Source of the DNA: Halobacteriovorax sp. GB3
Lineage (GTDB): Bacteria; Bdellovibrionota; Bacteriovoracia; Bacteriovoracales; Bacteriovoracaceae
Reading direction: 5' to 3'
DNA: 64,000 bases
NCBI RefSeq assembly: GCF_028649655.1
Contig: NZ_JAQSLN010000002.1
Span: forward strand, 186,001 to 250,000
Each line of letters opens with the position of its first letter. Position 1 is the first letter of the stretch. A model generated the notes under the pieces. It saw only the letters and a program-made list of their open reading frames with translations. It was not told where the DNA came from and did no database searches. The translations under genes were made by a program, and so were the position numbers. Shown piece by piece: positions 5,632 through 57,633 of this stretch.

Positions 5632-6647
5632 ATATCTTGAACAGAGTTTACCATTGATTCAATGGAATACTTCTTGTCAAAAGAGACCCTTTCAACTTTT
5701 AAAATACTATCTTTAAAACTCTCGTAATTACCTAAATCATAAAGGTTATGTCCACTTAGTAAATCTTTATGACCAGTAACATTTGAACAAAGTATTTTGC
5801 AATTGGCGGCCATCGCTTCAAGAATTGAATAGGGGAGACCTTCTCCTTTGGAAGAACTAACAAAAAGATCTGTTTTGGACAAAAGTCCTGCAACATCATC
5901 AACATTACCTAGAAAAACTGTCTCTTCTTGGAGCTCTAGTTCTTTTACAAGAGACTTAAGTTCTTCTTTCTGATCGCCATCTCCAGCAATATTGTAGAAA
6001 AACTGAAATGATTTTTCATTTTTCAACTTTGCGAGAAAGCGAAGAGTTTCAGAAATGTTCTTATGTTCATCAAGGCGAGAAATAGAAGAAATTTGAGTAA
6101 TTGGGCCATCTTCCCTTTTAGAACAGATATATTTCGCTTCATCAATTCCATTGGCAATGACAATCGTCTGATTTGAGAAGCACTGATTTAAATTAACCGC
6201 ATTGTCCATTTCGGAATGAGAAACACAGATAAAGGTGTCTGTGAAATATTTAAGTAAAACCCCAAGATTTATTTTCACTTTATCTGAAAGTGATTTTGGG
6301 TAGTGAATCCCATGAAAAGTATGAATAACTTTCAAACCGAATAAGCCTAGAAGACGAGAGTAAATCCCTGCTCCTAAACCATGAGAATGGACTATCTGAA
6401 TTCCATTTTCTCTACAAAAGAGTAATATTTTTAAAAAACTGATGATACTAAATTTACGATGAGGTATTTCAATATGAGTTTCACAAAGGTTCTTATAGAG
6501 GCCATAAAAAGGTTCATCTACTGGTGAAACGACTGAAACAGAATACTTTTTCGTGTCCATTGCTTTAATTAGGTCAAAGAGATGTTTCGGTCCACCACCT
6601 TGATCCGAGCGAACAGTAATTTGAAGAATCTTTTTATTAGTAAGCAT
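5616..6647 (-). CDS. Family 4 glycosyltransferase (GT-B fold)
   Basis: This 343-residue protein opens with KKILQITVRSDQGGGPKHLF, the glycine-rich loop of GT4 enzymes. It has HSHGLGAG and FHGIHYP in the acceptor half, and EGLPYSILEAMAANCKILCS carrying the EX7E donor-site motif near residue 265. It is expected to add a sugar from a nucleotide donor to the lipid-linked intermediate made by the enzyme encoded just upstream. Its start overlaps the end of the polyprenyl-phosphate sugar transferase gene by 11 nt, so the two are almost certainly co-translated and probably act in sequence. Confidence 0.9.
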   Translation of the reverse strand: MLTNKKILQITVRSDQGGGPKHLFDLIKAMDTKKYSVSVVSPVDEPFYGLYKNLCETHIEIPHRKFSIISFLKILLFCRENGIQIVHSHGLGAGIYSRLLGLFGLKVIHTFHGIHYPKSLSDKVKINLGVLLKYFTDTFICVSHSEMDNAVNLNQCFSNQTIVIANGIDEAKYICSKREDGPITQISSISRLDEHKNISETLRFLAKLKNEKSFQFFYNIAGDGDQKEELKSLVKELELQEETVFLGNVDDVAGLLSKTDLFVSSSKGEGLPYSILEAMAANCKILCSNVTGHKDLLSGHNLYDLGNYESFKDSILKVERVSFDKKYSIESMVNSVQDIYSSF

Positions 6648-8013
6648 TTTTATTAATAAAACCTTTTAAAAAAGTTAAAAGAATAATTTTGATATCAAAA
6701 AAGAAACTCCAGTGACGGATATAATAAATATCACATTCAATTCTTTTAACGAGAGATGTGTCTCCACGCCAACCATTGACTTGGGCCCATCCTGTGATTC
6801 CTGCCTTCATCTTATGTCTAAGCATGTAATTAGGGATTTCGTTTTTAAATTTCTCAACAAAGAATGGTCTTTCTGGTCTTGGGCCTACAAGAGACATTTC
6901 ACCAACAATAACATTCCAAAGCTGAGGTAGTTCATCTAAACTTGTCGATCGAATAAAACTTCCAAATTTTGTTTTTCTTGGATCGTCTTTTGAAGACCAA
7001 GTCGTTTGATCTTCACCTTCTATGGCCATTCTCATTGATCTAAACTTCCACATCTTAAAACGCTTTCCATTGAGACCAATTCTTTCTTGTCCATAGAAAA
7101 TAGGCCCTGGACTAGATAGCTTAACTCCTAGAGCGATGAGGAATAGAAGTGGCGAGATTACGATCATTCCAATTAAAGTTGCAAAGAAGTCAAAGGATCT
7201 CTTGAAAATCAGCTCCAGATTAGAAAATGAAGGTTGATTAAATGAAAGGATCGGAAGTCCGGCAAAATCATGAACTCTATGTCCTACGAGAGAGTATGAG
7301 AGATCTGGTAAAATTTGAATTGAAAGAATGTCGTTATAGTTTTTCTTTAGAAAAAGATCGAGCTTACTTGCTTGCTCATTTGGATAAGAGACAACTACAT
7401 TGGTCGTTTGATTCTTTTTTAGAAATTCATGAAAATCTTCGTCAATACGTTTGATTCCATCGTCACTTTCTTTGCCTACACTATCTATCCATCCAACGAT
7501 ATTGATTCCACTGTCTTTATGGAAATTAACCATTTGGATATAGTGTTCTAAATTTTTTCCATTACCTACAAGAATGACGTTTTGAAGAAGGTGACCACTT
7601 CTTCTCAATTTTGAGATAATTTGAAAGAATAGAATTCTAGAAAAGATGAGAAGTGCTGTAGATAGAAAGAGGTATATACCAAGGTGTAGCCTAGAAATTC
7701 TTTCGAATTTTATAAAATAGAGGACAATGATCAATGAGACAAAGCTTATAAAATTTGTCGAAATGATTTTGAGTATTTTATTAATTCTGGAAGTTAAAAT
7801 ATTTTCGTCGTATAAGTGATTTTTTTCAAATATGAGGTAAGTTACAATTGAAAGGATGAGGCCAATAATGAGAAATTCTTTGAAAAGTCCTTGTTGTGCA
7901 TTGGGTAAAAATCTGAATCTTATAAAATAAGCACAAATCCAAGCAATCAGAATTAGCAGTGCGTCGGTCGCTTTCTGAAGGGTTAATAAAAACTTGTCAC
8001 TTTCTCTTAGCAT
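6637..8013 (-). CDS. Undecaprenyl-phosphate sugar phosphotransferase (initiating enzyme)
   Basis: This 458-residue polyisoprenyl-phosphate hexose-1-phosphate transferase resembles WbaP/WcaJ. It starts glycan assembly by moving sugar-1-phosphate from a UDP-sugar onto undecaprenyl phosphate. About four N-terminal membrane segments (residues 13-130) are followed by a CoA-binding-like soluble domain, a re-entrant helix near 275-297, and the bacterial sugar transferase domain. Diagnostic motifs are KMWKFRSM, DELPQLWNVI, GEMSLVGPRPERP and GITGWAQVNGWRGD. Length is normal for the five-segment class. It is first in a two-gene unit with the GT4 gene and divergent from the aminotransferase gene. Confidence 0.94.
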   Translation of the reverse strand: MLRESDKFLLTLQKATDALLILIAWICAYFIRFRFLPNAQQGLFKEFLIIGLILSIVTYLIFEKNHLYDENILTSRINKILKIISTNFISFVSLIIVLYFIKFERISRLHLGIYLFLSTALLIFSRILFFQIISKLRRSGHLLQNVILVGNGKNLEHYIQMVNFHKDSGINIVGWIDSVGKESDDGIKRIDEDFHEFLKKNQTTNVVVSYPNEQASKLDLFLKKNYNDILSIQILPDLSYSLVGHRVHDFAGLPILSFNQPSFSNLELIFKRSFDFFATLIGMIVISPLLFLIALGVKLSSPGPIFYGQERIGLNGKRFKMWKFRSMRMAIEGEDQTTWSSKDDPRKTKFGSFIRSTSLDELPQLWNVIVGEMSLVGPRPERPFFVEKFKNEIPNYMLRHKMKAGITGWAQVNGWRGDTSLVKRIECDIYYIRHWSFFFDIKIILLTFLKGFINKNAY

Positions 8014-8082
8014 AAGGGCTCCTTAGTTTGTTAAAATACCAAAGTTTAGAGTTATTGAACATATAAAGAATTGGAATTTACG

Positions 8083-9177
8083 ATGATTGAATACGAGAAT
8101 TTAGGGAAATTGAATGAAGACCTTTTTGAAGATTATAAAGATGAGTTCTCAAAATTTCTGGCGTCTGGCTGGTATGTACTGGGGAAAAATGTAACCGAAT
8201 TTGAGGAGAACTTTGCAAAATATTGTGGGGTTGAATCATGTGTTGGTGTAGCTTCTGGGCTCGATGCTATTACATTATCGCTTTTGGCCCTCGATCTGCC
8301 AAAAGGAAGTGAAGTCATCGTTGCTGCAAATAGTTATATTGCCTCTGTTCTTTCAATCCTTAATGCCGAGTTAGTTCCTGTTCTCGTTGAACCAGATCCA
8401 ATTACTTACAATATTTCAGTAGAAAAGATTAAAGAAAGCGTCTCAGATAAAACAAAAGCAATTCTTTGTGTTCATATGTATGGGAAATTATGTGAGATGG
8501 ACAAGATTTGCGCTCTCGCAGATGAGAATGATCTCTTTGTGATTGAAGATGCCGCTCAAGCTCATGGCGCCATGTTAGATGGTGTGAAGGCCGGTGCTTG
8601 GGGCGATCTCTCGGCCTTTAGTTTTTATCCTACAAAAAATTTAGGAGCACTCGGTGATGGTGGTGCAATCACAACAAAGCACCCAGTCCTTGGAGAGAAG
8701 ATAAAGGCCTTACGTAATTATGGTTCTTATCAAAAATATCACAATGAATTCATTGGAATGAACTCAAGACTAGATGAGTGCCAAGCTGCTTTTTTAAACA
8801 AGAAATTAGTGAAATTGGATAAAATCAATAAACATAAGAAGAAGTTAGCTGATCTTTATTTTGATTTGTTATCAGAGTTAGATATTCAATTACCGACAAG
8901 AAATGAAAGATATGTCGATACATTTCATATCTTTAATATTCTGACGGAAAATAGAGATGAGTTGAAAGAATATCTATTTGAAAATGGTGTTAAATCAGAA
9001 ATTCACTATCCAATTCCACCTCATAAGCAAAACTGTTTAAAAGACTTTGAATTTGGTTCTTTCCCACTAACTGAAAAAATTCACGAGCAAACACTTTCAC
9101 TACCAATTTCCTATATTCATAGTGAAGATGATGTGAGAGAGGTTTGTAGATTAATTAAAGAGTTTAAGGAGAAGTAG
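8083..9177 (+). CDS. DegT/DnrJ/EryC1/StrS-family sugar aminotransferase
   Basis: This PLP-dependent enzyme aminates a keto-sugar nucleotide. The PLP-lysine region is [17 protein letters not shown], and GVASGLDAI and EDAAQAHGA are the phosphate-binding and cofactor Asp segments. The closest functional idea is a FdtB/QdtB-type 3-aminotransferase, because a matching ketoisomerase/acetyltransferase is encoded at 11751-12632. I chose the ATG at 8083 (GGA about 8 nt upstream); a TTG at 8071 is also in frame. The stop overlaps the next gene's GTG by one base (TAGTG). Confidence 0.9.
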
Positions 9178-22683: not shown

Positions 22684-22714
22684 GTCCTGGATACTTTTCT
22701 AGCGTCGTCGCGTC
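22684..22714 (+). repeat. RAYT-associated repeat, copy A
   Basis: This is the outer left copy of a five-member family. It opens with GTCCTGGATACTTTT and ends with two GCGTC pentamers spaced 8 nt apart. It lies in the convergent gap between the small-protein terminator and the stop of the lipoprotein gene. It matches inverted copy D at 28 of 31 positions. Confidence 0.85.
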
Positions 22715-22718
22715 AATT

Positions 22719-24143
22719 TTATTTGTTGTAATAATAAAGGGCCATATTCTTAAAGGCAAGAGAGGTATTAAGATCAAAATTAAATACGTCATTAAAGTAT
22801 TTAAACAATTGTATTGAAAGATACTTCCTATCTTCAGATTCATCTATAATATCGAAAATCTTCGAATATATTTCATTAATTTTGATTGCAGAATTTGGAT
22901 TCTCTCTAATTCTAAATAATTCCCTCGGTAGGTAATCTAGCAGTTGTGCTATTTCTTTATTTCCTTGAAAAGTTGGAGCTTCGCTCTTTTTTGAATATTC
23001 TAAGTCAAATTTATAAACACCAGTAGAAAGAGGACTTTCATAAGAGTTCTCCTTTTTTTGCTCTGGCTCTGTTTTAAGTTCGATATCTCTTAATCTCTCC
23101 ATCACAATGTATCGAACTGAATGCTCAACTTGATCATTTGGCTTAAAGTTCTGATGGTCTCTTTTAAGAAAGTAGCTTAATTCGTAATCATGAAGATGTC
23201 GGCTAAGTATCGTGAAGTCCTGGGAACCTAAAAAGACTGGTTCTTGACCAAGGTCGCCACCAGAAATCTTCAAATAATCTCCTGCCCTATAGGGATTAGA
23301 GTTAAGATCAAAATTATTTGAAGTATATTTGTCATTGTTTTTGATCAAAGTAAATGGAAGGCAAAAATCCTTAGTGCATCTTGAAAATTTATGAGTTCCC
23401 TCGAGTTCGTAAGACACGGCCGTGTCTACTTGATTCGCGGAGTCCGTTTGTGTGAAGATAAGAGCTTCAATTTGTTTATTATTATCTTTATCTCGTTGTG
23501 TTAATCTTCTCCACGCCAAATAGTCCACTTGTTCTCGTGCTGGGGTGTCACATTTAGGCTTCAGCTCTTCTTGGTTGAAAAGTGTTTGATCTGTTATTTT
23601 CCGTTCAAAGCTTTCACAGCTTTTAGAGGAAATAGAGAGTTCTCCTCTCCATGAGATAATATCTTCTTCTTTATTTTCAAGCTTCTCAAATTCTCTGAGA
23701 TCGTCTCCAAAAAGATTCTGAACCTCTTTATTGTAAGCAATATTGAAGTCATCAATAAATTCTTCAGGGATATCTTTGTACTTCCTATTTAAATCAATCT
23801 TTTGCTTTCGAATATAATTTCTATAATCTGTTTCATATCGTGATGAAATATAGTCCCTATTATAGCTTAAGATTGTATAGGGTTTTGAATCGAGTAACTT
23901 ATTAAGAAAACTAACTGAAAGTGGTCTACCTTTAGAGTCGAGATGGTCTTTCTTGTATTTGATAATTTCTTTCTCGACGACTTCTTCTTTTAAGACGGGT
24001 ACTTCTTTGATGACTTCAACTTCAACTTGTTCTTTTACAACAACTTCTTTCGTTACTGGAACTTCCCTAACAACTTCTTTTTTACAGCCGATTAAGATGG
24101 CCGGTGCGGTTAAAAATAATCCAATGAATTTTGAATGTCTCAT
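22719..24143 (-). CDS. Large lipoprotein with a repetitive Val/Glu stalk, unknown function
   Basis: This 474-residue protein has a lipoprotein signal (FLTAPAILIGC, Cys20). Residues ~21-66 are a repetitive acidic/valine stretch of EVP, EVV and KEV units that may act as an extended stalk. The remainder is hydrophilic, mixed alpha/beta and has six or so cysteines. I recognise no enzymatic motif. It has a good ribosome-binding site (GAGGAG about 8 nt before the ATG) and its own upstream gap. It lies inside the outer pair of the RAYT-associated repeats, so it may be carried or bordered by that element. Confidence 0.75.
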   Translation of the reverse strand: MRHSKFIGLFLTAPAILIGCKKEVVREVPVTKEVVVKEQVEVEVIKEVPVLKEEVVEKEIIKYKKDHLDSKGRPLSVSFLNKLLDSKPYTILSYNRDYISSRYETDYRNYIRKQKIDLNRKYKDIPEEFIDDFNIAYNKEVQNLFGDDLREFEKLENKEEDIISWRGELSISSKSCESFERKITDQTLFNQEELKPKCDTPAREQVDYLAWRRLTQRDKDNNKQIEALIFTQTDSANQVDTAVSYELEGTHKFSRCTKDFCLPFTLIKNNDKYTSNNFDLNSNPYRAGDYLKISGGDLGQEPVFLGSQDFTILSRHLHDYELSYFLKRDHQNFKPNDQVEHSVRYIVMERLRDIELKTEPEQKKENSYESPLSTGVYKFDLEYSKKSEAPTFQGNKEIAQLLDYLPRELFRIRENPNSAIKINEIYSKIFDIIDESEDRKYLSIQLFKYFNDVFNFDLNTSLAFKNMALYYYNK

Positions 24144-24244
24144 TTAGGACTCCTCGCTATTAGAAAAATCTTCGCAAGAAAATCGAAAATGAAAAATCTA
24201 TCTGAAATTAAGTCATAAATTGTTTAAATAATTAACACTTTTTC

Positions 24245-24274
24245 GTCCTGGATACTTTTATTGCGTCACTGCGT
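24245..24274 (+). repeat. RAYT-associated repeat, copy B (inner left)
   Basis: The copy has the same GTCCTGGATACTTTT core, then ATTGCGTC and a second GCGT. It overlaps the stop of the RAYT gene (24266-24268). It is 27 of 30 identical to inverted copy C on the other side of the gene, so the two form terminal-like inverted repeats. Confidence 0.88.
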
Positions 24275-24895
24275 AAAGTTCGCTTGAGGATTCTGGCGAT
24301 AACCTTGGTTTTTAGGGTATTGATAAATTCTCTTTTTCATCGCTTTTTGGATGAGAAGATGATCATTTTCACAAAAACTAGTATTAATCCATGATGAAAA
24401 TTGATCTTCTCTTGAGGTACAGTCAACAAATTTAGTGATTTTGACAGCTGTTTTATTGGCCTTTTCGGAGCATAAAAGAAAAGGATATTTGAGGAAATCG
24501 TGAGAGAGTTTCGCTCTTAGGGGATTTTGGAGTACATATTTATAAACGTTGTAATAGTAGTTTTGATCTCGAACAAGTGAGCTTTTATACCGACCACCAA
24601 AGATAGAATTGATAATCTCTGCCTTAATTTGAATCTTGTAGGTTAAGCGCTTCATAAGCTTATACATGACTTTATCGATGTTAGATTTTGGAGTTTGGCA
24701 TAATAGGTGAAAGTGGTTGGGCATCAAAACAAAGGCATATATAGTTAGGTTCTCTTCCTTTTGAACTTTTTCTAATTCATAGATAAAAAGATTCCAGACA
24801 TCATTTAAAGGAATAGGAAACGGAGCTTTTCTGTGGCAACGGTTTACAATGTGATAGGGGTATTTAGAAGTTCTAATCGTTGTAGTTCTTGTCAT
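24266..24895 (-). mobile_element. RAYT: REP-associated Y1 tyrosine transposase (IS200/IS605-like, TnpA_REP)
   Basis: This 209-residue single-strand DNA transposase of the Y1 HUH family has the metal-binding HUH motif H61-F-H63 in VLMPNHFHLL. The Tyr-rich helix YYYNVYKYVLQNPLRA carries the candidate nucleophile Y117 or Y120 ahead of NPLRA, the hallmark of REP-associated transposases. GGRYKSSLV is also conserved. RAYTs act on short dispersed repeats rather than on full insertion sequences, and near-identical inverted repeats flank this gene (24245-24274 and 24973-25002). The catalytic residues look intact. No ribosome-binding site is evident, so expression may be low. Confidence 0.9.
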
Positions 24896-24972
24896 TAAAG
24901 TGGCATAATTTAACGAAGTCTAAAAGAGAACAACTTATCTAAAGTCTATGACTCTTTTTTCTCTATTGAATA

Positions 24973-25002
24973 ACGCAAAGACGCAATAAAAGTATCCAGT
25001 AC
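24973..25002 (-). repeat. RAYT-associated repeat, copy C (inner right)
   Basis: This is the inverse-orientation copy; read on the minus strand it begins GTACTGGATACTTTT and continues ATTGCGTC. It lies 77 nt upstream of the RAYT start and 19 nt downstream of the stop of the barrel-protein gene. It differs from copy B at three positions. Confidence 0.88.
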
Positions 25003-25021
25003 AAAAAATTCAAAAAATTCT

Positions 25022-25573
25022 CTAGAAGCGAGCAGACAGTCCCAACGTTGGTCTATATTCGCGATCACTTCCTCTTGGCTTTCCTGTAAATACGACAGTG
25101 AGACCAGCATTGGCCCTAATCCTGTTACTTAAATTTATACCAAGCCCCGCTCCGGCATAAGGGGAGAGGTAAATGGCAGGCTTTTCTGTTGTCGTTACTC
25201 CCGCTTGAGTTTTTTCAACTTCAGACTGGCGAGCATGGCCGCCGGCCCTTAGTGTAAAACTTAAAATACTACCAAGCCTAATGCGTGACCTGAGACCAAG
25301 CATCGCTGTATTGGATGTTTCTTTGATTGTTAGATCTTCGTCTGGAAATGATTCACTGTCTTTAGCCTGAGTGACTTCTGCCTCGAGTGCTAAAAGTGGA
25401 ACTCCTAAGCTAGCGCGAAGTCCATAAGTTAAACGGTCTTTAGAGTGAGGTGTTGGCTCGAACTTCATGACTCTTTCATATCCCACGACCGGCTCTATTT
25501 CCAAGAGTCCTTTCAGTGCCGCTTGAGAGGGGAGAGATAGTGAGATGAATGTGAGCGCTATTAGTGCTTTCAT
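25022..25573 (-). CDS. Small outer-membrane beta-barrel protein
   Basis: This 183-residue protein has a Sec signal (ALIALTFISLSLPSQA) and a mature part of alternating polar and hydrophobic strands rich in Gly, Ala, Arg and aromatics. It ends LGLSARF, with the C-terminal Phe typical of outer-membrane barrels. About eight strands fit the length, as in OmpA-barrel or OmpW-size porins. No specific family is recognised. It lies between repeat copies C and D, inside the outer inverted pair of the RAYT block. Confidence 0.72.
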   Translation of the reverse strand: MKALIALTFISLSLPSQAALKGLLEIEPVVGYERVMKFEPTPHSKDRLTYGLRASLGVPLLALEAEVTQAKDSESFPDEDLTIKETSNTAMLGLRSRIRLGSILSFTLRAGGHARQSEVEKTQAGVTTTEKPAIYLSPYAGAGLGINLSNRIRANAGLTVVFTGKPRGSDREYRPTLGLSARF

Positions 25574-25679
25574 ATATCAATTTTGCCTGAATCAAAAATT
25601 AGATGATAGTCAGAAAGTTATTCCGAAACCCTTATCAATAGGTGAGGGGATTGATATGATACCGTATTACTAATTTTAT

Positions 25680-25710
25680 GATGCGGCGACGCTAGAGAAG
25701 TATCCAGGAC
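25680..25710 (-). repeat. RAYT-associated repeat, copy D (outer right)
   Basis: This inverse copy ends in GTATCCAGGAC on the plus strand. Its last bases include AGGA at 25706-25709, six nt before the ATG of the next gene, so the repeat appears to provide that gene's ribosome-binding site. It matches copy A at 28 of 31 positions. Confidence 0.86.
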
Positions 25711-25715
25711 CGAAA

Positions 25716-26444
25716 ATGGAATTACCTTGGGATGAAAGTTTAATAATTATACCTACTTATAATGAAATTGATAATATCGAGAGAATGATTAAGACTGTAT
25801 TTGGTCTTTATCCTGAAGTTTCTCTTTTGATTATTGAGGACGGTTCTCCTGATGGAACTGCTGATGTCGTTAAAAGACTACAAGGCGATTTCTCAAATCT
25901 TCATATGATTGAGAGAACTGGTAAGCTTGGTCTTGGGACGGCTTATACAACAGGTTTTAAGTGGGCCTTAGATAAAGGGTATAATTTTGTTTTTGAAATG
26001 GACTGTGACTTTTCACACGATCCTGAACAAGTTAAAGACCTACTCGCTGCTGCTCAGGTAAATGATCTCGTTATCGGTTCTCGTTATATTGACGGAATTA
26101 GAATTATCAATTGGCCTTTCAGAAGACTTCTTCTTTCTTATTGCGCTTCAATCTATACGCGCTTTATGACGGGAATTCCTGTCTTCGATACAACAGGTGG
26201 TTTCAAGTGCTTTACAAGAAAGGCACTGGAAACAATTAATTTAGATAATATCATTTCTAATGGTTATATTTTTCAACTCGAACTCAATTACAAAGTTTGG
26301 TCTAAGGGTCTAAATGTAAAAGAAGTTCCAATCATTTTTTATGAGAGACGTGATGGGCAATCAAAGATGGGTGGCGGAATTATTTTCGAAGCTGTTTTTA
26401 ATGTCATTAAATTGCGCTTGAAAAAAATGATGGGCAGTCTCTAG
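25716..26444 (+). CDS. Polyprenol-phosphate mannose synthase (DPM1-like GT2)
   Basis: This 242-residue enzyme is close to the soluble DPM1 type. LIIIPTYNEIDNIERMI is the first strand, IIEDGSPDGTADVV follows, EMDCDFSHDP carries the metal-binding DxD-like site, and IGSRYIDG and DTTGGFKCF complete the family pattern. No membrane helix follows, as in the DPM1/Ppm1 catalytic unit. It transfers mannose or another hexose from a GDP-sugar to undecaprenyl phosphate. The ribosome-binding site falls inside repeat copy D. The next gene begins 13 nt downstream. Confidence 0.92.
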   Translation: MELPWDESLIIIPTYNEIDNIERMIKTVFGLYPEVSLLIIEDGSPDGTADVVKRLQGDFSNLHMIERTGKLGLGTAYTTGFKWALDKGYNFVFEMDCDFSHDPEQVKDLLAAAQVNDLVIGSRYIDGIRIINWPFRRLLLSYCASIYTRFMTGIPVFDTTGGFKCFTRKALETINLDNIISNGYIFQLELNYKVWSKGLNVKEVPIIFYERRDGQSKMGGGIIFEAVFNVIKLRLKKMMGSL

Positions 26445-28754: not shown

Positions 28755-29759
28755 ATGCTTAAACATAAAGCGAATAATATTCTTATTCTTAAAAATAGGG
28801 CCATGGGCGATAGCATCATGGGTCTATCATCTGTACAATATCTTCGTTCACTTTATCCAAATAGTAAAATCTATTATGGGATGCCTAAATGGATTACAAA
28901 ATTGTATGCCAATGTTGAAATTGAAGCGGATGCAGTTATTGATATAAGCTTAAATAGTTTGGGTGATTGGTTTAAGCTTTGGAAAAAATTGAAGTTTCTT
29001 AAAATTGATCTCGTCTATGAGATGCATCAAGCTGGTCGATCTGCAAAATTTTTCAATATCTATTCAACTCTTACAGGTATTCCTTACTATTATCATAATC
29101 ATCACCTTAAAGAAGGAACGAAAGTCTTTGATCAAGGAGTGATAAAATCTCTTATTCAAAGAGATCTCGATGGACTTTACTCTCTGCTGACCGATCAAAG
29201 TGCATATCCTAATTTTTTAGATTATCAACCAACGATGAATCCAAAAAATCATATGGATCTAGAGGATGGCTTTGTTGTTTTTGGTGTCGTGGCAACGAGA
29301 GAAACGAAGATGTGGCCACTTGATCACTATATTGGTTTGGCGCGTTTGTTAAAAAAGAAAATTAAAATTCCTCTCTCTACTTCTGATGTTGATAGGAAGA
29401 TCAAAGAAGAGATTTTAAAACTTAATCCTAGCGATAATGTAGAGATTGTTCATATTCCTTTGGAAAATTTACCACTCTTTATGTCTAAAGCATCTTTATA
29501 TATTGGAAATGATACAGGGCTCAAGCATTTGGCCATTGCAACAGGTATAAAGAGTTATACATTTTTTGGGCCGGAGCCGCCAAATGAATGGCATCCATAT
29601 GATGTTAATAACCACCCTTATTTTTATAGAGAAGGATTAGAGTGTCGAACGAGAGAGGCACACTATTGTGGGCTTAGTACTTGTGAAAGTATGATTTGCT
29701 TGAATCAATTTTACCCTTCTCAAGTTTATGAAGTTATAAAAAGAGACCTAAATGAATAA
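28755..29759 (+). CDS. Family 9 glycosyltransferase (heptosyltransferase-like)
   Basis: This 334-residue GT-B enzyme of the ADP-heptose:LPS heptosyltransferase family has ILILKNRAMGDSIMGLSSVQ at the N-terminus, the conserved Asp and Ser of the first loop, and SLYIGNDTGLKHLAIATG near residue 250, the GT9 donor-site hallmark. It probably adds heptose to the LPS inner core; a different sugar is possible because KPxxxW is altered. It overlaps the following gene by 8 nt and is divergent from the WaaE-like gene, forming an LPS-core cluster. Confidence 0.9.
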   Translation: MLKHKANNILILKNRAMGDSIMGLSSVQYLRSLYPNSKIYYGMPKWITKLYANVEIEADAVIDISLNSLGDWFKLWKKLKFLKIDLVYEMHQAGRSAKFFNIYSTLTGIPYYYHNHHLKEGTKVFDQGVIKSLIQRDLDGLYSLLTDQSAYPNFLDYQPTMNPKNHMDLEDGFVVFGVVATRETKMWPLDHYIGLARLLKKKIKIPLSTSDVDRKIKEEILKLNPSDNVEIVHIPLENLPLFMSKASLYIGNDTGLKHLAIATGIKSYTFFGPEPPNEWHPYDVNNHPYFYREGLECRTREAHYCGLSTCESMICLNQFYPSQVYEVIKRDLNE

Positions 29760-30651
29760 TCAGCCTTTAATATCAGGAATTACTTTTATTAAGAATGGAT
29801 TAACTCTTGGTTATCCAATTAAAGAAAGTATTGAATCGATTGAAGATCTTTGCGATGAGATCATTATTAATGTTGGTTTTGATGATCCCGATTGTCAGAG
29901 CGATGATGGAACATGGGACTACTTAACAAAAAATTTCCAAGGCGATAAATATAAATTTTTAAAGTCTTATTGGAACCCAGAAGTCATGTCGAAGGGATTG
30001 ATTCTCTCTGAGCAGACAAACATCGCATTAGATGAAGCGAAGGGAAAATACTGTCAATATATTCAAGGCGATGAATGTCTTCATGAACAAGATTTAAAAA
30101 CGATTAAATCAGCGGTGGAAGATTTAGAAAAACCTGAAAACTCACATGTTGATGGTCTTGTATTTAAGTATGTTCACTTTTATGGAAATACAAATGTCGA
30201 AAAAGTTACTAAGAAAACTTATCGTCAGGAATTGAGATTAATTAGGAACTTTAAAGGCATTAGGTCTTGGTTAGATGCTCAAGGATTTCGCTATAGCGAT
30301 GACACGAAAGTTAAGTGTACAAGAGTTAATGCGACTGTCTATCACTATGGATGGGCAAGAGCTGAACAAGTTATGGATAAGAAAAATAAGGCCTTCAATA
30401 AGCTCTATCATGGAAAAGATTTCAAGACGAAAGAACATAAATACTCTCGAATCTGGGGACTTCGTCCATTTAAAGGAACACACCCTAAAGTCATGAACTC
30501 TTGGATTGAAGAAAATAAAAATGAAATTGATATTCTTTCACTGCCGCTAGACTTTAAAATGTCTGATATCAGATTAATGTTGAGTGATAGCTTTGAACAC
30601 CTTACAGGTATCAGAATCGGTGAGTATACAAATTTCAAAATCGTAAAGTAG
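29752..30651 (+). CDS. Putative GT2-like glycosyltransferase
   Basis: This 299-residue protein begins ISGITFIKNGLTLGYPIKES and has a GT-A-like layout, with IQGDECLHEQDL where the metal-binding Asp/Glu would be. It shares this pattern with glycosyltransferases annotated only as 'family 2' in other bacteria. A basic region of ~60 residues follows, then a C-terminal segment possibly binding the acceptor. It is flanked by GT9 (8-nt overlap) and GT4 (6-nt gap) genes, so an LPS-core or O-chain step is likely. The call rests partly on context. Confidence 0.7.
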   Translation: MNNQPLISGITFIKNGLTLGYPIKESIESIEDLCDEIIINVGFDDPDCQSDDGTWDYLTKNFQGDKYKFLKSYWNPEVMSKGLILSEQTNIALDEAKGKYCQYIQGDECLHEQDLKTIKSAVEDLEKPENSHVDGLVFKYVHFYGNTNVEKVTKKTYRQELRLIRNFKGIRSWLDAQGFRYSDDTKVKCTRVNATVYHYGWARAEQVMDKKNKAFNKLYHGKDFKTKEHKYSRIWGLRPFKGTHPKVMNSWIEENKNEIDILSLPLDFKMSDIRLMLSDSFEHLTGIRIGEYTNFKIVK

Positions 30652-57587: not shown

Positions 57588-57607
57588 GCCACGACGGCAT
57601 TTGATGC
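57588..57607 (+). repeat. Second copy of the 20-bp duplication
   Basis: This is identical to 57475-57494. Its last bases GATGC are also the first bases of RAYT-associated repeat copy E. Confidence 0.82.
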
Positions 57608-57633
57608 ATCGACGCAACAAAAGTATCCAGGAC
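57603..57633 (-). repeat. RAYT-associated repeat, copy E (distant copy)
   Basis: This inverse copy shares the CTGGATACTTTT core and GCGTC pentamer of the copies near 22-26 kb. It stands 18 nt from the stop of the patatin gene, in the same downstream position as copies A, B and C relative to minus-strand genes. Confidence 0.85.

Follow-up and report, generated by a model that had tools for sequence, protein, structure and literature searches.

A Y1 transposase gene in a 64,000-nt stretch of Halobacteriovorax sp. GB3 DNA (the window) is surrounded by four copies of a short repeat in mirror order. The question raised by this layout is whether the outer repeats bound a larger mobile unit or are further repeats of one family that reached the neighbourhood of the transposase gene separately. 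RAYTs are thought to stay put and to spread short REPs only.

Repeats around the transposase gene

The features of the locus are given below in window positions.

22684-22715, + strand: REP copy A (outer left), GTCC head outward, directly 3' of the terminator of a 99-aa gene
22719-24143, - strand: lipoprotein-like gene, 474 aa, between A and B
24245-24276, + strand: REP copy B, terminal REP on the 3' side of the RAYT gene
24266-24895, - strand: RAYT (TnpA_REP), Y1 (HUH) transposase, 209 aa, with HUH motif H61-x-H63 and catalytic tyrosine Y120 assigned by alignment
24971-25002, - strand: REP copy C, terminal REP on the 5' side of the RAYT gene, 75 nt upstream of its ATG
25022-25573, - strand: outer-membrane-barrel-like (OMP_b-brl-like) gene, 183 aa, between C and D
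25679-25710, - strand: REP copy D (outer right), ending 5 nt before the glycosyltransferase ATG
25716-26444, + strand: family-2 glycosyltransferase gene next to D, conserved and serving as synteny anchor to the congener
57602-57633, - strand: fifth REP copy of the window, near trpS (C2:243601-243633)

The mirror order around the Y1 transposase that the original prediction had described, with A and B on the forward and C and D on the reverse strand, was found at these positions, and the lipoprotein and barrel genes expected within the outer pair were present. All four repeats are genuine and far exceed chance expectation: a 30-nt consensus gave five matches in the window at three mismatches, and none in 100 shuffles. 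The RAYT gene is flanked by two inverted REPs, B and C, as in a REPtron, and B covers the final 11 nt of the RAYT reading frame including the stop codon. The inverted pair B/C is 89% complementary over 36 nt (32/36 identical), and the pair A/D is 89% complementary over 38 nt. Two GCGTC pentamers 8 nt apart, also foreseen, occur as GCGTCNNNGCGT.

Each pair had been said to share private bases. This was borne out for B and C, of which ATTGCG is absent from all other copies among the 14 in the genome. The bases ascribed to A and D (CTAGCGTC or CTAGCGGC) proved to be the majority form genome-wide, and were for this reason rejected as proof of an A/D unit; CTAGCG is the commonest form among all 14 copies. 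The closest copy to A is C4:240892 on another contig (2 mismatches of 31, compared with 3 between A and D), and the closest copy to D genome-wide is A (3 mismatches). A and D lack the specific match to each other that the outer ends of a composite transposon would have, and have nothing in common with the RAYT ends except the 32-nt REP. The sequence AGGA within D may act as the ribosome-binding site of the glycosyltransferase gene (window 25679-25716).

The transposase

The transposase at 24266-24895 is a RAYT and the sole Y1_Tnp gene of the genome. It scored over the Pfam Y1_Tnp cut-off and reached 65.2 bits (E=5.5e-18) with the NCBIfam model for REP-associated tyrosine transposases (NF047646), the cut-off of which is 80; by this model it is a divergent member, the cut-off being a model threshold and no biological defining feature. 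A profile of the family matched 4er8 TnpA_REP (E=1e-9). The AlphaFold model (pLDDT 83.5) had its best PDB fold match in 4er8 (E=1.4e-9), followed by the IS608 and ISDra2 transposases. H61-x-H63 and Y120 are invariant in the 42 RAYTs of the bacterial family that were aligned.

Copies of the repeat in the genome

Copies were counted by pattern searches with at most three mismatches, which may miss more diverged ones. The REP unit of 32 nt, GTCCTGGATACTTTTCTAGCGTCNNNGCGT(Y)A, is present in 14 copies in the 3.62-Mb genome (9 contigs): four at the RAYT gene, one at window 57602-57633 and nine elsewhere. This is far from the hundreds of occurrences that the original prediction had named as speaking against a composite unit. 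All 14 copies are essentially intergenic, and the 12 besides the terminal pair lie in gaps between genes. Their heads are GTCC, GTAC or ATCC; the canonical 5' GT[AG]G is absent.

Three convergent pairs, each spanning 49-63 bp and with the heads outward, account for six of the copies; each pair folds into one long hairpin.

C1:723012-723060: REPIN-like pair, two inverted REPs close together
C2:138805-138867: REPIN-like pair, two inverted REPs close together
C4:240830-240892: REPIN-like pair, two inverted REPs close together

The hairpins predicted for these adjacent pairs have -19 to -25 kcal/mol, and REPs joined in the B/C or A/D orientation would give a long hairpin of about -27 to -30 kcal/mol. 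A single REP has just a weak hairpin of 3-6 bp near its inner end (-0.5 to -3.3 kcal/mol, DNA parameters), and the canonical stable GC-rich hairpin directly after the head was not found in single REPs.

For the analysis of clustering each pair was counted as one site and B and C were excluded, which left nine non-terminal sites. Six of the nine lie at most 77 kb from the RAYT gene (P=4e-7) and two within about 1.7 kb (P=4e-5), both values being from a simple binomial with the distance chosen afterwards. Similarity among neighbouring REPs was marginal (permutation P=0.046) and driven by a trio at C2:134-139 kb. Two REPs in direct orientation, at C2:134143 and C2:136020 (6143 and 8020 of locus L015), are identical over a 31-nt core and flank a two-gene segment of 103 and 455 aa, the 455-aa gene being without match in the congener.

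RAYT ends in the bacterial family

RAYT loci of the family (42) were picked by similarity and size of contig. A flanking inverted pair exceeding shuffled controls was obtained at 31/42 loci, of which 30 were judged credible and one (L153) spurious. In 29 of the 30 credible loci both sides carry a GTNC head (0.11 expected per locus by shuffling). The ends have a common shape, AAAG-GTNC(C/G).GG..CCTTTTGG, each locus with its own version. RAYT ends in the family bear a GTNC tag in place of GT[AG]G, and the pair B/C is this species' version of the ordinary terminal RAYT pair. In the literature searched, no report of a GTNC-tagged class and no paper naming both RAYT and Bdellovibrio were found.

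The GTNC head and the AAAG-GTNC..GG..CTTTTGG shape were noted at RAYT loci L149-L188, L074 and L019, with one version per species. In the genus g44 the cognate REP GTGCCAGGTTGAGTTTGG has 20 and 26 copies in the two genomes whose RAYT bears it (26 in G044 and 20 in G067, with REPIN-like pairs) and 0-3 copies in the three other genomes of that genus.

Neighbouring genes and comparison with a congener

In the congener G001 the gene order is trypsin-like, sulfatase-like, glycosyltransferase, barrel (- strand), PilZ. In the window it is trypsin-like, sulfatase-like, UDP-sugar dehydrogenase (UGD), 99-aa gene, A, lipoprotein, B, RAYT, C, barrel (- strand), D, glycosyltransferase, TauE, PilZ. From the gene orders compared, the extra DNA is therefore larger than A-D: the non-syntenic insert runs past A and takes in UGD and the 99-aa gene. 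In the empty-site comparison TauE differs as well, and the barrel gene has its place across the glycosyltransferase gene.

This REP was not found in G001, the one congener compared, whose own RAYT is 40% identical and carries a different repeat. A fixed ancestral arrangement shared by all relatives, named beforehand as an outcome that would count against a composite unit, was rejected because the repeat is missing from G001. Because G001 carries no copy of the repeat and its barrel gene follows the glycosyltransferase gene, A-D does not look like one block inserted at a clean site. The other REP sites also have flanking genes that are non-syntenic with the congener, and gene order differs at each. 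A family-wide search with this REP gave matches at two to three mismatches that were no more frequent than those of the reversed pattern used as control, or were isolated stray ones.

The barrel gene, which is chromosomal, widespread and single-copy, is present once here and 77% identical to the gene of the sister species. Going by its sequence relatives and gene order, it appears to be an old neighbour that changed sides and no foreign cargo; REPs C and D, or tandem duplication with loss, may be behind the side change. For the lipoprotein-like gene, 90 family genomes yielded one weak partial match but no clear homologue, and there was no Pfam or NCBIfam match.

Two further loci are recorded here as separate observations. 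The RAYT of G001 (L074, G001:C24, 6967-11180) has on its two sides a pair of similar genes (508 and 512 aa) that are inverted relative to each other, and the locus also carries three palindromic 40-nt repeats, GTGCCACGTTCCC...GGGAACGTGGCAC. A RAYT of another genus with a different repeat (L178, G049:C2, 3281-5150) lies near orthologues of the genes at window 28755-30651; these orthologues are 58% and 70% identical to two adjacent glycan-cluster genes about 4 kb from the RAYT gene of the window.

Extra copies at other RAYT loci

Strong extra copies near RAYTs were seen at L149, L154, L166, L169, L178, L179, L184, L164, L157 and L074. All 10 strong single extra copies, A and D included, point their heads away from the RAYT (10/10, two-sided P=0.002, post hoc).

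A double nest in the order outer, inner, RAYT, inner, outer surrounds an unrelated RAYT in G079, of another genus (L179, G079:C3:318500-333000, 5909-8469), and comprises all four copies in that 3.8 Mb genome. In the outer copies of G079 the RAYT end sequence extends over about 80 nt, matching the inner ends of their own side at 72/80 and 74/79 nt. Two small genes that look like a RelE/HigA toxin-antitoxin pair and one ankyrin-like gene are the passengers. In comparison with G068 the flanking genes are non-syntenic, and no empty site was found. At L184 (G084:C22) two units of 180-212 bp, lying +840 to +2126 from the RAYT, combine left-end and right-end sequence and resemble internally deleted derivatives.

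Passengers are unrelated from locus to locus. A common type of cargo between inner and outer repeats was rejected, as the passengers differ at every locus.

Origin of the outer copies

The locus is a RAYT/REP locus (REPtron), and its REPs probably spread locally. Its core is B-RAYT-C, a single-copy Y1 HUH transposase gene with two inverted terminal REPs. A and D would be two further members of this REP family, inserted with outward GTCC heads into the adjoining intergenic gaps. The RAYT would be the agent of this spread, and A and D would have separate origins. The RAYT most likely cuts and rejoins single-stranded DNA at REPs and spreads them, preferentially near its own gene, as short units that are either a REP or a hairpin pair (REPIN); lone copies like A and D may each have landed independently or be one half of a REPIN that broke up. 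Random local landing would not lead one to expect the mirror orientation, which counts against this reading.

The orientation of A and D is that of a REPIN, and if joined they would give a near-perfect hairpin like the three real REPINs; D moreover has A as its nearest copy genome-wide. A and D could once have been a single REPIN, the halves of which were separated when the RAYT element and neighbouring genes were inserted between them. This is unlikely, as the nearest copy to A is not D and the enclosed barrel gene, an old neighbour of the glycosyltransferase gene, is not obviously an insert. More unlikely still is a composite or nested element in which A and D are second outer ends, so that the RAYT could carry the lipoprotein and barrel genes. 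It would account for the same nest in G079, where those are the only four copies and the outer ones match the RAYT ends of their own side, for the outward direction of all 10 strong single extra copies, and for a barrel gene that is bracketed by C and D across the glycosyltransferase gene from its place in the congener. Against it, A and D of the window are without RAYT end sequence beyond the 32-nt REP and without a private match to each other, the non-syntenic insert exceeds A, and passengers differ at every locus. G079 and the orientation bias, for which random landing offers no explanation, are the main grounds for retaining the composite element as a minority reading; the G079 outer copies, with their about 80 nt of RAYT end, look more like a nested or composite element. 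It is no more probable that family RAYTs repeatedly gain a second set of outward ends enclosing adjacent genes, by which a domesticated transposase that is normally not mobile could excise or move passengers as a composite unit, with the window and G079 as two independent examples.

It is very improbable that the repeats are regulatory or terminator sequences of the host at gene ends and the RAYT just a neighbour. Their essentially intergenic positions would suit such a role, as would the terminator that A follows and the ribosome-binding site that D could supply. There are only 14 copies, however, none of them in the congener, and each family RAYT has its own cognate repeat at its ends, an association over 30 loci that counts strongly against host sequences.

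The composite unit or two rounds of insertion suggested at the outset stand in part. The repeat's link to the RAYT is upheld, as is repeat insertion in more than one round, by the 14 copies, their strong clustering near the RAYT gene and their absence from the congener. A composite unit ending at A and D is not upheld: the A/D bases are the genome consensus, the barrel gene is chromosomal and the insert runs past A.

Compared with genomes that contain hundreds of copies, a family with few REPs, an own repeat for each RAYT and a common GTNC tag offers a simpler setting for studying the first spread of REPs. With the outward outer copies and the G079 outer pair with RAYT ends, mobilisation of neighbouring genes by a RAYT becomes directly testable.

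Comparison with known systems

MITEs are an established concept for IS200/IS605-like elements. The units of G084 carry left and right RAYT ends, as internal deletion derivatives would, whereas the repeats of the window have just 32 nt in common. In the TIRtron/TIRYT system (Di Nocera 2013 PMC3733652) a RAYT-like gene likewise lies within long inverted repeats without GTAG, and some repeats occur elsewhere as singles, dimers or clusters; the TIR motif is GGGGWSAS, and the shared motif here is GTNC..GG..CTTTTGG.

The three convergent REP pairs of 49-63 bp with one long hairpin correspond to REPINs (Bertels and Rainey 2011 PMC3116915), from which the present case differs in that copies are few, most others are single and the pairs are known from sequence alone. 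RAYTs were reported to be always flanked by two inverted REPs, and REPs to accumulate within 200 kb of some rayt genes (Nunvar 2010 PMC2817692); such local spread was described for several marine gammaproteobacteria and Thauera (Nunvar 2010). The locus shares with the REPtron/RAYT system (Nunvar 2010 PMC2817692; Quentin 2018 PMC6006769) the single-copy Y1 HUH gene, the two inverted REPs, the related intergenic REPs and their accumulation near rayt, as reported for some genomes. It is unlike that system in its GTCC head (GTNC family-wide) instead of GT[AG]G, its weak single-REP hairpin and its 14 copies only. Genome parasites of this kind are known, the repeat tag being what is unusual here, and the locus is not clearly a larger mobile unit.
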